Origin: Treponema sp.
Lineage (GTDB): Bacteria > Spirochaetota > Spirochaetia > Treponematales > Treponemataceae
Direction: 5' to 3'
DNA length: 37,577 nt
NCBI GenBank assembly: GCA_024695475.1
Contig: JAILIC010000113.1
Location: 1 to 37,577, forward strand
Part shown: positions 2,937 to 37,577 of the stretch, in pieces
Layout: the number at the start of each line of letters is the position of its first letter
Numbering within the stretch: the stretch's first letter is position 1
Made by a program: the position numbers and the translations under genes
Notes under the pieces: generated by a model
Database searches by the model: none
What the model was told of the DNA's origin: nothing
What the model saw: only the letters and a program-made list of their open reading frames with translations

Positions 2937-4700
2937 ATGTATACGAAGCTTAGAAAACTATGTACTTTTCAAACGCTGTTGCTTTTAGCTTTTGCTTTTT
3001 GTCTTATCTGCATTCTTCCCTTTACACGAGCACTGCTTGTTGCTCTCATGGAAATGCTTATTGGAAGATCATTACGCAATATCCATAAATGGGATATGGT
3101 CATCATCCATTCGATGGCTTTTTTTGCGACATTATGTGCAATCTGGTATTTTTTGTGGTATACAAAAAAAGGTAAACCTGCATGGTCTGCCATTAAAGAA
3201 AAATACATACATCTTTTTTGTCAGGAACATACCGTAAAATATCTTACGGTCCTCTTTACCCTCTTGTGTATATTCTTTTTTGCACTCCTACGTGCAAATT
3301 ACGATTATCAAGATGATATTACCCGCTCTTTTAAGGGGCATAAAATGTGGGCTGGCGGCAGTCGCTTTGTGTCAGAAACACTAGCGGTATTTTTGCATAC
3401 TAATTTCTATATCAATGATATTTCGCCCATTACGCAATTATTCAGTATCGCTGTTATCTGTGTCACTGCCTATCTTATTGCAGGCATCATCGGTAAAGGC
3501 AAAGTAACACGACTGTCATTGGCTGCAGCGTCACTGTTTGGTATGACTCCATTTTTTTTGGAAAACATGTCATATAAATACGACTGTCCATACATGGCTC
3601 TCTCTGTACTCTTTGCAGTCATTCCATTTCTTTGTACCTCACACTATCTAGCCTATTGCATTACCAGTTTTACGGGGCTTATTCTTGTCTGTTCGTCTTA
3701 TCAGGCCTCAAACAGCGTATATATACTGCTTGCAATCTATTGCGCATTTGCGCTCTGGCTCGACGGAGCTTCTTGGAAAAAGATCGGTATTTTTGCAGGA
3801 TTGTCCGTAGCAAGCTACGTAGCCGCACTCGTCTATTTTAGAGCTGTCATCATGATTCCTTGGTCAAGTGAAGGCATGGATGTCGGTACTGACATTGTAC
3901 AGGGCAACCTTATTGCAGGTATAGCACGTAATTTTATTACCTATGTTCATGTAATACTCCGTACCTTTGGCAACATCTGGATAAAAGGTTTTACCGCTCT
4001 TGCCATGCTGATATTTCCTTGTGCAATCGCCTGTCATGCTAAAAATAAGAAGTTGGTATCAGGGCTATTTGCACTTGTCATCATGTCCGGCATGTTTGCA
4101 TTATCATACGGAGCCTATCTCATACTTGAAGATGCCGCTATGGTAGGCAGAGCCTTTATCGGCTTTGCTGTTTTTGTCAGTCTCATTGCAACTGCCGACA
4201 TTGTTTTTGTACAGGAGGCCCGTCCAGCTGTTCTTACAAAAGTTACCTATGGCATTGTACTTTGTTTATTTTATGGCATGGGCATTTGCACTACCGTTAC
4301 CGGTAACCTGTATGCCAAGCAAAAGGATTATCAGACCTTCCGCTTTACGATTTTGGCACAAGATTTAAGCCATATTGTAGATCCGAGTCAAAATAATACA
4401 TTGTTTGTCGGCGGTGCTATCGGTCAGACAAGCAAGGCTCATATGGAATATGTAAACTACCATCTTGAAATGGGAGGAGCAACAAGTCCTTGGAGCAGCT
4501 ACATTCTGGCAAATTTAAACATGAATGTAGAGTTTAGTTCTACCGATACCTGGGAAAACCTTTCTACACAAGAAAAAGAACATCTGCAATCATTGCCATT
4601 GATTATGGACAGCTACTATCATACGATTTATGGCAAAGACAATGAGTATTATGTAGCTTTCAAAAATCCTCAGGTCACGGATTACGAAAATGGCAACTAA
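2937..4700 (+). CDS. GtrII-like membrane glucosyltransferase (Glucos_trans_II family)
   Basis: A 587-residue polytopic protein with about ten hydrophobic segments over residues 10-440 and a soluble C-terminal part of about 130 residues. The first large loop carries DYQDDITR (D126-D127), followed by GHKMWAGGSRFVSETL, the acidic-pair and arginine pattern of the GtrII family, which uses lipid-linked glucose to modify surface glycans on the outer side of the membrane. A plausible partner is the GtrB-like enzyme at 688. The ATG at 2937 has no visible Shine-Dalgarno sequence. The gene ends 9 bases before the first YidC-phosphotransferase fusion, so the two are probably co-transcribed. Confidence 0.75.
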   Translation: MYTKLRKLCTFQTLLLLAFAFCLICILPFTRALLVALMEMLIGRSLRNIHKWDMVIIHSMAFFATLCAIWYFLWYTKKGKPAWSAIKEKYIHLFCQEHTVKYLTVLFTLLCIFFFALLRANYDYQDDITRSFKGHKMWAGGSRFVSETLAVFLHTNFYINDISPITQLFSIAVICVTAYLIAGIIGKGKVTRLSLAAASLFGMTPFFLENMSYKYDCPYMALSVLFAVIPFLCTSHYLAYCITSFTGLILVCSSYQASNSVYILLAIYCAFALWLDGASWKKIGIFAGLSVASYVAALVYFRAVIMIPWSSEGMDVGTDIVQGNLIAGIARNFITYVHVILRTFGNIWIKGFTALAMLIFPCAIACHAKNKKLVSGLFALVIMSGMFALSYGAYLILEDAAMVGRAFIGFAVFVSLIATADIVFVQEARPAVLTKVTYGIVLCLFYGMGICTTVTGNLYAKQKDYQTFRFTILAQDLSHIVDPSQNNTLFVGGAIGQTSKAHMEYVNYHLEMGGATSPWSSYILANLNMNVEFSSTDTWENLSTQEKEHLQSLPLIMDSYYHTIYGKDNEYYVAFKNPQVTDYENGN

Positions 4701-34890: not shown

Positions 34891-34911
34891 GCTTTCCCCA
34901 CAAATTGTAAT

Positions 34912-35544
34912 TTGTTTGCATACGCCGCAAACAATCCGGTCAAGTACACGGACCCAGATGGCAAATCACCTGTACATTTTATTCCATCAATTGGATGGAG
35001 TCATCATGCACCCCAGCGACTCTTCGGTTACTTTAATGTTTATGATCCAGCTTCAATTCTTTTAGGCTTTGATATTCATGGAACACAAATTGATGTAAAT
35101 GATTTTACTATCAGAATGTGGAAAGGAAACTATAGTTTTGCTGGTGCCGGTTGTGAATTAGGTATTTATACAAGAAATGGGGCTGCAATGAATCGGGATG
35201 AATTGTCCAGTCTTGGGATTGTATCATCTTCTTCTGAGCTTTATGTCGAGAATGGGAAAAAACCTTTAATAGGTACATCTAAAGAAGGTAAACCAAGTTT
35301 CTGGACAACACAATTCCACCCGTTACTAGCATGGATAGCACTTAAGAGTGAATTGACTGCAAAATTTCAACTTAACTTTGATACGAAAGAACATGCTGAA
35401 AACTTTTTTAATCAAATTGCAGGTAAAGGGGATAAAGCCGAAAGTTATTTTTGGAATGGCTTTCTCAATAAAGAAAAAGTTGATTTTTATCTGAGCGAAG
35501 ATAAAAAATCTGTCATATTTAAGTATGGAGATTTTGACAAATGA
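34912..35544 (+). pseudogene. Orphan RHS C-terminal toxin tip with DUF4474-like domain
   Basis: The 210-codon frame opens with FAYAANNPVKYTDPDGK, the conserved end of an RHS-repeat core, but no RHS repeats lie upstream. The only start is a TTG without a visible ribosome-binding site. After the core end, residues ~60-190 (IRMWKGNYSFAGAGCELGIY; FWTTQFHPLLAW; DTKEHAENFF) resemble DUF4474, a domain found at polymorphic toxin ends. It reads as a displaced toxin tip, the kind of cassette exchanged beneath RHS cores. The stop overlaps the downstream lipoprotein start (ATGA), as in toxin-immunity pairs. Toxic activity is unknown; the DUF4474 match is from memory of the pattern. Confidence 0.7.
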
Positions 35545-36278
35545 AAAAGTTTCAATTTTTATTATTTACAATGTTTTTTTCTTTATGCACAGGCTGTACA
35601 ATGTCAAGAAGTTATAGTTTTTATAATGCAATTTACAGGGAAGATGTAAACCTTGTAAAAGAATTACTTGAAGAAGGTTCGGATCCAGATAAATGCAGGG
35701 GAGAAGCAGGATGGGTAGATGGTAATCCATTGAAAATTGTGTCTGAAAGTTTTGAAAATACATTTTATAGCGGTAAGACTGATGATTTCAAAGACATTCA
35801 GTTATTGAATTTACTAATTGATTATGGAGCCGATATAAATCGTTTGCCATATGTTTGGGCACGTGTTTATACATGGGGAAATAAAGAGCTAGACTCTTCT
35901 TTGACATCAATCTATAAATATCATAAAGATGAAATCGGTGAGCGGAATCCAGAAGATAATTTTATTAAAGATTCAAACCGTTTGTTGAAAGCTATGCTTG
36001 AAAAAGGAATGAGCCCGAATATGAAAGGACATCCTGTTCCGTACACACATAGACTGAAACTATTGTTTTTCAATGATAGAATAGCTTTTATGTATTTTAA
36101 TTCTTCAAAGGCAACGACCCCACTCTATGAGGCAATAAAAAAAGGAATGAGATGGGAAAGTCAGGTAGATTTACTTCTTGAATACGGCGCAACTTTGGAT
36201 GAATCATGTCTTGAAGCTGCTCAACAGAGTGGAGACGAAGCGATGGTATTAAAAATAGAGAAACTGATGAAAAAATGA
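35541..36278 (+). CDS. Ankyrin-repeat lipoprotein, probable immunity protein
   Basis: 245 residues. The N-terminus KKFQFLLFTMFFSLCTGCT is a lipoprotein signal with a relaxed spirochaete-type lipobox (C19). Ankyrin-like repeats follow: FYNAIYREDVNLVKELLEEG, LLNLLIDYGADINRLP, TPLYEAIKKGM...VDLLLEYGATLD, and a last LEAAQQSGDEAMVLKIEKL. Ankyrin proteins are a known immunity class in RHS/CDI polymorphic toxin systems. Four-base overlap with the toxin tip supports pairing. A lipid-anchored periplasmic location would imply a toxin acting in the periplasm or at the membrane. Without the functional RHS carrier it may act as an orphan immunity gene. Confidence 0.75.
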   Translation: MKKFQFLLFTMFFSLCTGCTMSRSYSFYNAIYREDVNLVKELLEEGSDPDKCRGEAGWVDGNPLKIVSESFENTFYSGKTDDFKDIQLLNLLIDYGADINRLPYVWARVYTWGNKELDSSLTSIYKYHKDEIGERNPEDNFIKDSNRLLKAMLEKGMSPNMKGHPVPYTHRLKLLFFNDRIAFMYFNSSKATTPLYEAIKKGMRWESQVDLLLEYGATLDESCLEAAQQSGDEAMVLKIEKLMKK

Positions 36279-36288
36279 TACCTTCATA

Positions 36289-36321
36289 CCTGGCGTTTCC
36301 GGCGTGACTGGAATCGCTAGG
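36289..36321 (+). terminator. Imperfect hairpin just after the ankyrin lipoprotein
   Basis: CCTGGCGTTTCC (36289-36300) pairs with GGAATCGCTAGG (36310-36321) at 10 of 12 positions around a 9-base loop, starting 10 bases after the stop codon. There is no T-tract, so it may be a terminator-like or mobile-element hairpin. Confidence 0.4.
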
Positions 36322-36325
36322 TGTT

Positions 36326-36353
36326 AGTCATATCAATAGCAATTGATTTGACT
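36326..36353. repeat. 12-bp inverted repeat with 4-base loop
   Basis: AGTCATATCAAT (36326-36337) and ATTGATTTGACT (36342-36353) are reverse complements at 11 of 12 positions, loop AGCA. It lies immediately before the 22-bp repeat array and could be an element terminus. Confidence 0.5.
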
Positions 36354-36360
36354 ATCAATC

Positions 36361-36514
36361 TGACTTACTGTCACAATAATTATGACTTACGTTCACAATG
36401 ATTACGACTTACGGTCACAATAATTATAATGGACAGTCAGAAAGATTCTGTACGACGTGGGAGATAATTCTGTACGACGTGGGAGATAATTCCGTACAAC
36501 GTTAGGAAATTGAT
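36361..36514 (+). repeat. Seven in-phase degenerate 22-bp direct repeats
   Basis: Units start at 36361, 36383, 36405, 36427, 36449, 36471 and 36493. Units 1-3 share GACTTAC and TCACAAT; units 5 and 6 are identical over 22 bases (TGTACGACGTGGGAGATAAT then TC); units 4 and 7 are intermediate or degenerate. There are no spacers. The array ends where a short ORF starts. This lies in the 372-base stretch 36279-36650 that has no other clear gene. Multiple ~22-bp repeats at an element end recall transposase-binding sites of Tn7- and IS21-type elements; that identity is inferred. Confidence 0.65.
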
Positions 36515-36592
36515 ATGTCATTCACAGAGCTTCTGACAACCACAGTAGATACTCATGATATGCAAGACTATGGCAAAACCGTTACTTTATAA
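36515..36592 (+). CDS. 25-codon ORF after the repeat array, possibly a truncated element gene
   Basis: ATG to TAA, 25 residues beginning MSFTELLTTTVDTHDMQDYG, with AGGAAA (36504-36509) at suitable spacing. It may be the cut N-terminus of a transposase whose promoter/end region is the repeat array. I do not recognise it; coding status is uncertain. Confidence 0.3.
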   Translation: MSFTELLTTTVDTHDMQDYGKTVTL

Positions 36593-36650: not shown

Positions 36651-37577
36651 ATGACTACAGAAACAATTTACAAAATCACATCAAAAATGGCTGAATTCCT
36701 TTCGGTAACGCAGTTAGAAATATTGAGCAAAGTATGTTTTGAAATTCTTGCCAAAGAGCCGGACGTTAAAACAATTAAAAAACACAAACAAAACCTTATA
36801 AAACAATTTATCAGTGCAAAAAAAGTGGAAGGATGTTCCAAAAGGACGGAAGAATATTATTATTCTGTTCTTTTTTGTTTTGAAAAAAACATCACCTGCG
36901 ATATTTGTAACGCCGATACAAACACAATCCGTGACTACCTCATAAAATACCAGAAAATCAACAACTGCACCAATGTCACACTCGACACCATACGCAGAAT
37001 TCTCTCCAGCTTTTACCGCTGGCTTGAAGAAGAAGATTTTATCATAAAAAGTCCTATGAAACGAATCCACAGAATAAAAACACCTTCCGTCATAAAGCCT
37101 GCTTTTTCAGATGAGCAGATTGAGAATATAAGAAGTACAGCTGCCACAAACAAGCGGAATATTGCCATCATAGATATTTTACTTTCATCAGGTATAAGAG
37201 TAAGTGAACTTGTCAACCTTGACTGCTCTGCAGTCGATCTAAACTCACGGACTTGCATAGTATTTGGCAAAGGCTCAAAACAGCGCGAAACTTATTTTGA
37301 TGTGCGGACAAAAATTGAGCTTGCAAACTACCTAAAAACACGGACAGACAATAACAAGGCACTTTTTATAACAGAACGTAAAAACAAAGAACTAGAAACG
37401 TATACAAGGCTCTCGGTAAATGCAATTGAAAAAATGATACGCGAAGTAGGTCAAAAAACACAGATTGATAACGTCCATCCGCACCGTTTTCGCCGTACAA
37501 TGGCTACAAAGGCCATAGACAAGGGCATGCCTATTGAGCAGGTACAGGTCTTACTAGGACATACAAAAATAGATACG
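36651..37577 (+). CDS. Tyrosine recombinase/integrase, C-terminus cut by window edge
   Basis: 309 codons open to the right edge, start ATG 36651 with a strong AGGGGTGAT upstream. The N-terminal core-binding domain (~45-135; SKRTEEYYYSVLFCF, ILSSFYRWLEEE) is XerC/D-like. Catalytic residues seen: arginine in LLSSGIRVSELVNL, lysine in VFGKGSKQRE, the HxxR in VHPHRFRRTMAT, and histidine in VLLGHTKIDT. The nucleophilic tyrosine would lie just past the window. There is no extra patch of the kind found in integron IntI. Probably the integrase of a mobile element; its attachment site is not identified. Confidence 0.9.
   Translation, partial: MTTETIYKITSKMAEFLSVTQLEILSKVCFEILAKEPDVKTIKKHKQNLIKQFISAKKVEGCSKRTEEYYYSVLFCFEKNITCDICNADTNTIRDYLIKYQKINNCTNVTLDTIRRILSSFYRWLEEEDFIIKSPMKRIHRIKTPSVIKPAFSDEQIENIRSTAATNKRNIAIIDILLSSGIRVSELVNLDCSAVDLNSRTCIVFGKGSKQRETYFDVRTKIELANYLKTRTDNNKALFITERKNKELETYTRLSVNAIEKMIREVGQKTQIDNVHPHRFRRTMATKAIDKGMPIEQVQVLLGHTKIDT

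Follow-up and report, generated by a model that had tools for sequence, protein, structure and literature searches.

Genes and features of the locus

The window, that is, the whole stretch of 37,577 bp of Treponema sp. DNA analysed here, carries near its end an intergenic array of 22-bp repeat units, located between an orphan Rhs/YD-repeat tip with its ankyrin-repeat partner and a tyrosine recombinase gene (Table 1). Orphan Rhs/YD-repeat tips (..NNPVKYTDPDG..) and small partner genes form cassette-like series in many treponemes. These cassettes occur in the window (34909–36278) and at the loci L008–L012, L212, and L217–L222, often with an adjacent XerA-like recombinase; tips and recombinase together are possibly a tip-shuffling system. 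Imperfect attC-like hairpins follow the tip/partner cassettes of the window and of L008 (1225–1262). Both hairpins share CTAG(C/T)G...CGCCAG arms and 9-nt loops, suggesting integron-type cassettes.

The recombinase reported beyond the array in the initial annotation is indeed present. It is XerA-like, starts 137 bp downstream of the array, and is not an integron integrase (TIGR02249 score of 53.9 bits versus a cut-off of 265). Its relatives in other treponemes (63–73% identity) are located among Rhs toxin tips. More distant relatives (about 50% identity) from Firmicutes and Bacteroides (L018 and L074) adjoin hsdS genes, which probably ties this recombinase family to phase-variable type I restriction specificity. 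An IS91-type partner was rejected: the relatives have no neighbouring IS91 transposase and occur by themselves next to Rhs tips or hsdS.

Table 1. Coordinates of features in the window and loci of the array families detected in the same genome.
Feature	Position or loci	Strand	Remarks
Orphan Rhs/YD-repeat C-terminal tip (..AANNPVKYTDPDG..)	34909..35544	+	With DUF4474
Ankyrin-repeat protein	35541..36278	+	Likely immunity partner of upstream toxin tip
Imperfect hairpin CCTGGCG..CGCTAGG	36288..36322	+	attC-like; just upstream of array; single-strand DNA fold z -2.7
Possible extra unit	36317..36338		11/22 to unit 0
CATATCAAT	36329..36337	+	Left arm of 9-bp perfect inverted repeat bounding the array
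Decayed unit 0	36339..36360	.	11/22 to unit 1; leftward extension of array
Seven 22-bp units	36361..36514	.	Units 1–3 TGACTTACGGTCACAATAATTA-like; 4, bridge; 5–6, TGTACGACGTGGGAGATAATTC; 7, decayed
Dyad TGAC-TTACT-GTCA	36361..36373	.	Common to window, families A and E
ATTGATATG	36509..36517	-	Right arm of the same inverted repeat as CATATCAAT
25-codon ORF	36515..36592	+	Probably not a gene
XerA-like tyrosine recombinase (PF00589 + PF13495)	36651..37577	+	Interrupted only by contig end at 37577
Family A	L275, L278
Family B	L274, L292, L285		Single unit at L337
Family C	L282, L248, L337
Family D	L231, L286
Family E	L226, L235

Structure of the window array

The seven units follow one another in exact 22-bp register without a single indel, as originally described. 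Lag-22 comparison over positions 36317–36514 gave 113 matches of 176, while 20,000 shuffles gave a mean of 47.0 (sd 5.7) and a maximum of 74. Units 1–3 are identical to each other at 19–20 of 22 positions (86–91%), units 5 and 6 are the same, and unit 7 has decayed to 10/22 relative to them. Unit 4 is intermediate: it matches units 1–3 at 12–13 of 22 positions and retains GTCA at the same offset, in agreement with its earlier interpretation as a bridge between the two groups. TRF reported two distinct 22-bp arrays here (36361–36427 and 36445–36502). The two consensus units, however, agree at 11 of 22 positions at offset 0 and at no more than 9 at all other offsets. Since their agreement is best in register, they look like a single family that has drifted from a common ancestor; the alternative that the similarities arose by chance was not borne out by either the shuffles or the register.

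The array is enclosed by a 9-bp perfect inverted repeat. None of 200 flank shuffles reached an inverted repeat of this length, the frequency of the 9-mer is about 1 per 44 kb, and no bounding pair of comparable strength was seen in any other array (14 arrays compared). The same nine bases as in the right arm form the 3' boundary of array L275, at which the end of an IS3-family element (TGATATGCACC) starts. The inverted-repeat and TGATATG arguments are post hoc, having been made once the sequence had been seen, and the match to the L275 edge is suggestive. An ATG does follow unit 7 (position 36515), but it lies within the right arm and opens an ORF of 25 codons only. Thus, the 'start codon' into which unit 7 was said to run is probably a piece of the array boundary, and the 'truncated ORF' downstream of the array, with its 25 codons, is probably not a gene.

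A genome-wide class of 22–23 bp arrays

Noncoding tandem arrays (z ≥ 6) were sought at periods from 13 to 63 in 524 kb of the same genome, comprising 40 stretches picked by contig number regardless of arrays and three regions in hand. All 13 arrays detected have a period of 22 (six arrays) or 23 bp (seven arrays); no other period was found. The coding hits, 40 in total, all display periods that are multiples of three, as expected for protein repeats. Markov simulation of the sample, run six times, yielded no arrays. After leaving out two arrays from regions that had been selected for other reasons, 11 arrays remain in about 460 kb, which extrapolates to approximately 75 arrays per 3.17-Mb genome. 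The window array, noncoding and with z = 9.4 at period 22, is a member of this genome-wide intergenic class of 22–23 bp arrays in this gut treponeme.

The array density was much lower in samples from three other treponemes: none in 363 kb (G048), one in 310 kb (G001), and one, with a period of 48, in 412 kb (G049). A periodicity scan of treponeme loci revealed further arrays of about 22 bp (21–23 bp), with wholly different sequences. Among the open papers searched, which make up part of the literature, none was found to describe a treponeme array class with a fixed period and several families.

The position and orientation of arrays relative to genes did not differ from those of ordinary intergenic gaps of 150–900 bp, and on the same comparison an orientation bias, with arrays solely upstream of genes, was rejected. 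At L226:6965–7990 (G000:C96), an orphan ankyrin immunity-like gene and an array occupy the place that an Rhs gene takes in the relative L009; arrays are possible markers of rearrangement junctions. Genes of the HU family (HU-HIG/DUF4469) were seen beside or near arrays L105, L229, L008, L222, and L275, a raw proximity that is not counted as evidence.

Unit families and array growth

Most arrays of this genome belong to unit families that are present at two or more loci. At least five such families, each at 2–4 loci, were recognised (Table 1). Pairwise local scores within families are 48–93 versus a shuffle maximum of 11, and there is no recognisable similarity between families. The window array, L247, and L272 are sequence singletons within the sample; all that the window array has in common with other loci is the dyad TGAC-N5-GTCA.

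Unit identity declines with distance within arrays (18 arrays, combined permutation p = 2e-8; window array, p = 0.016). Neighbouring units are thus more alike than distant ones, as expected of local unit duplication with drift, and the comparison shows that the arrays grow in this way. The graded change of sequence across the window array is, as judged from these unit comparisons, an outcome of the same process: duplication and turnover of whole units keep neighbours similar and let the ends of an array drift apart. The recurrence of families at several loci shows that arrays have, in addition, been copied in blocks to further sites.

The array and the neighbouring recombinase

One could regard the array as a region that serves the neighbouring tyrosine recombinase, or an integron, as an accessory or attachment site, comparable to attI or to arm sites. 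Its position 137 bp upstream of the recombinase gene and the attC-like hairpin just before it would fit, as would array L285 of family B, which lies directly upstream of the start of a true integron integrase (L285:4049–5323, G000:C25; TIGR02249, 424.8 bits) whose N-terminus is extended by about 110 residues. The recombinases with 63–73% identity in other treponemes, however, have no array upstream; the array is therefore no conserved component of this locus. Most sibling arrays adjoin unrelated genes. Moreover, integrons are known from treponemes, and their attI is on the other side of intI from the position of the array (PMC3607928). We consider an attachment function quite improbable.

IS3-family ends at array edges

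Five arrays adjoin the right end of an IS3-family element or a fragment thereof. At L274, a 1,345-bp element (3087–4431; NCBIfam NF033516) with terminal repeats TGATMTGCACCYA is directly joined by its right terminal base to an array of family B; a target duplication is not visible for this copy. At the other loci, what adjoins the array is the last 73–76 bp of the right end (L292, family B), the last 21 bp (L278, family A), the last 13 bp followed by an internal deletion (L275, family A), and the terminal 11 bp (L286, family D). Most sampled arrays have no IS end at all. The arrays are always on the right side of the element and outside it, and therefore do not represent its transposase-binding ends. 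One reading of this arrangement is that insertion of IS3-family elements is directed to array edges and is followed by loss of the element. The edge of the window array shows 9 bp (ATTGATATG) only, versus 11–76 bp of the IS3-family end at the five siblings; this copy (36329–36517) may likewise have been bounded or trimmed by IS3-family ends.

Searches for further copies and for a parent transposon

The initial annotation had proposed a transposase end, of IS21, Tn7-like, or IS481 type, and a search for a second copy or an intact element. This search, in the same genome and about 200 relatives, found neither and returned hits at chance level only. BLAST and pattern searches revealed no other copy of the window array in its own genome and no reverse copies of its sites that could represent an opposite end. 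In 197–200 related genomes, BLAST recovered the window's own copy only, and pattern searches gave matches at no more than the rate of reversed-pattern controls, those inspected being located in or beside unrelated genes. The window array had no match in plasmid, phage, and viral-contig collections or, up to E = 1, in Rfam, and the sibling families had none in viral contigs.

Repeated transposase sites about 22–23 bp apart do occur at IS21 and Tn7 ends, with a 23-bp spacing reported for IS21 (PMC10122671), and IS3-family ends adjoin sibling arrays. On this reading, the array would be one end, with several binding sites, of a DDE transposon (IS21, Tn7-like) that was later truncated by insertion of the recombinase element. 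The treponeme arrays, however, lack a transposase, an opposite end, and an intact element, and no transposase of the proposed types is encoded near the window array. The sibling arrays are found beyond the IS3 terminal repeats, and at least five unrelated families would each require a transposase of their own. Given the missing second copy and the lack of an array at related recombinases, the window array is not a recognisable transposon end; this origin is strongly disfavoured and the least probable of those considered.

Dyad symmetry and the constant step

TGAC-N5-GTCA is the most widely shared dyad, being present in four arrays (families A and E and units 1–3 of the window); it does not occur in the remaining noncoding DNA of the sample (44 kb). 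Palindromy exceeds that of shuffles in about one-third of arrays; it is not significant in most arrays of this genome, the window array included. The test for a conserved core next to a spacer that varies at constant length was significant for L229, L008, and L231, but neither for the window array nor for most others of the same genome. In L105 and L229, both from other treponemes, a 12-bp core is kept, and the spacers, though of different sequence, all have one length.

The array was earlier taken for a protein-binding one. Its non-random nature, the class-wide combination of constant phase with drifting sequence, and the dyad found in three families fit this proposal; no binding protein was identified for the arrays, which counts against it. 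A dimeric DNA-binding protein that reads short inverted-repeat units could hold the step at 22–23 bp, as successive units would then be presented to it on nearly the same face of the helix. From the sequence patterns, phased protein binding is plausible and our leading guess, rated a little above a neutral or selfish origin.

The latter would involve the same class of arrays, with the period either handed down from one common ancestor of the arrays or fixed by the way in which units are copied, the phase read by no protein, and drift and duplication as in minisatellites. The decay of unit identity with distance, the missing conserved core in most arrays including that of the window, the absence of a positional bias, and the patchy distribution among species are all in line with such an origin. 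It accounts less well for the retention of 22–23 bp by at least five families with no recognisable similarity, for a dyad common to several of them, and for the constant spacer length beside the conserved 12-bp core in L105 and L229. We assign it an appreciable, though less than even, chance.

The best overall explanation, to which we give a probability of about 0.5, would be that the window array belongs to the genome-wide class, grew by local duplication, was bounded by IS3-family ends, and is phased by dimer binding. Against it speak the lack of a sequence relative of the window unit elsewhere, the lack of an IS end at most arrays, and their ordinary placement. A bolder proposal, rather unlikely in our estimate, is that this treponeme lineage keeps dozens of arrays whose sequence is free to drift and whose two-turn step is held by a phase-reading protein tolerant of many sequences.

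Comparison with known repeat systems

REP, BIME, and REPIN elements are also short, intergenic, dispersed, and often palindromic, with several families per genome, and some IS3-family elements, namely IS1397 and ISKpn1, insert into REP-type repeats (PMC1525189). The treponeme arrays, in contrast, are arranged head-to-tail with a fixed step of 22–23 bp, whereas REP/BIME units alternate, and the IS3-family end adjoins the edge of the array and not the axis of a palindrome. REP/BIME units are defined as palindromes of 20–40 nt in high copy number; here, clear palindromy is limited to about one-third of arrays and each family to 2–4 loci. Searches for the RAYT transposase (Y1_Tnp, PF01797) gave no match in this genome, while the E. 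coli control was positive. REP/BIME sequences are thus the closest system in habit, but their arrangement is different and their transposase is missing here.

The iteron and operator arrays of plasmids and regulators consist of direct repeats spaced by about two helical turns, as do the treponeme arrays. The latter, however, occupy dozens of chromosomal sites and share neither a common replication gene nor a cognate regulator gene. Intergenic minisatellites and VNTRs have local duplication and drift in common with the treponeme arrays, whose period, unlike theirs, is confined to 22–23 bp across unrelated families.

Interspersed repeats of bacteria are normally defined by their sequence. In this treponeme, the conserved property is the spacing, while the unit families are unrelated. 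If a protein enforces the step, the arrays would be maintained in a way that is new for repeats and would offer a tractable route to a spirochete DNA-binding system. If no protein does so, they would point to a duplication mechanism that is able to yield one unit length throughout the genome.
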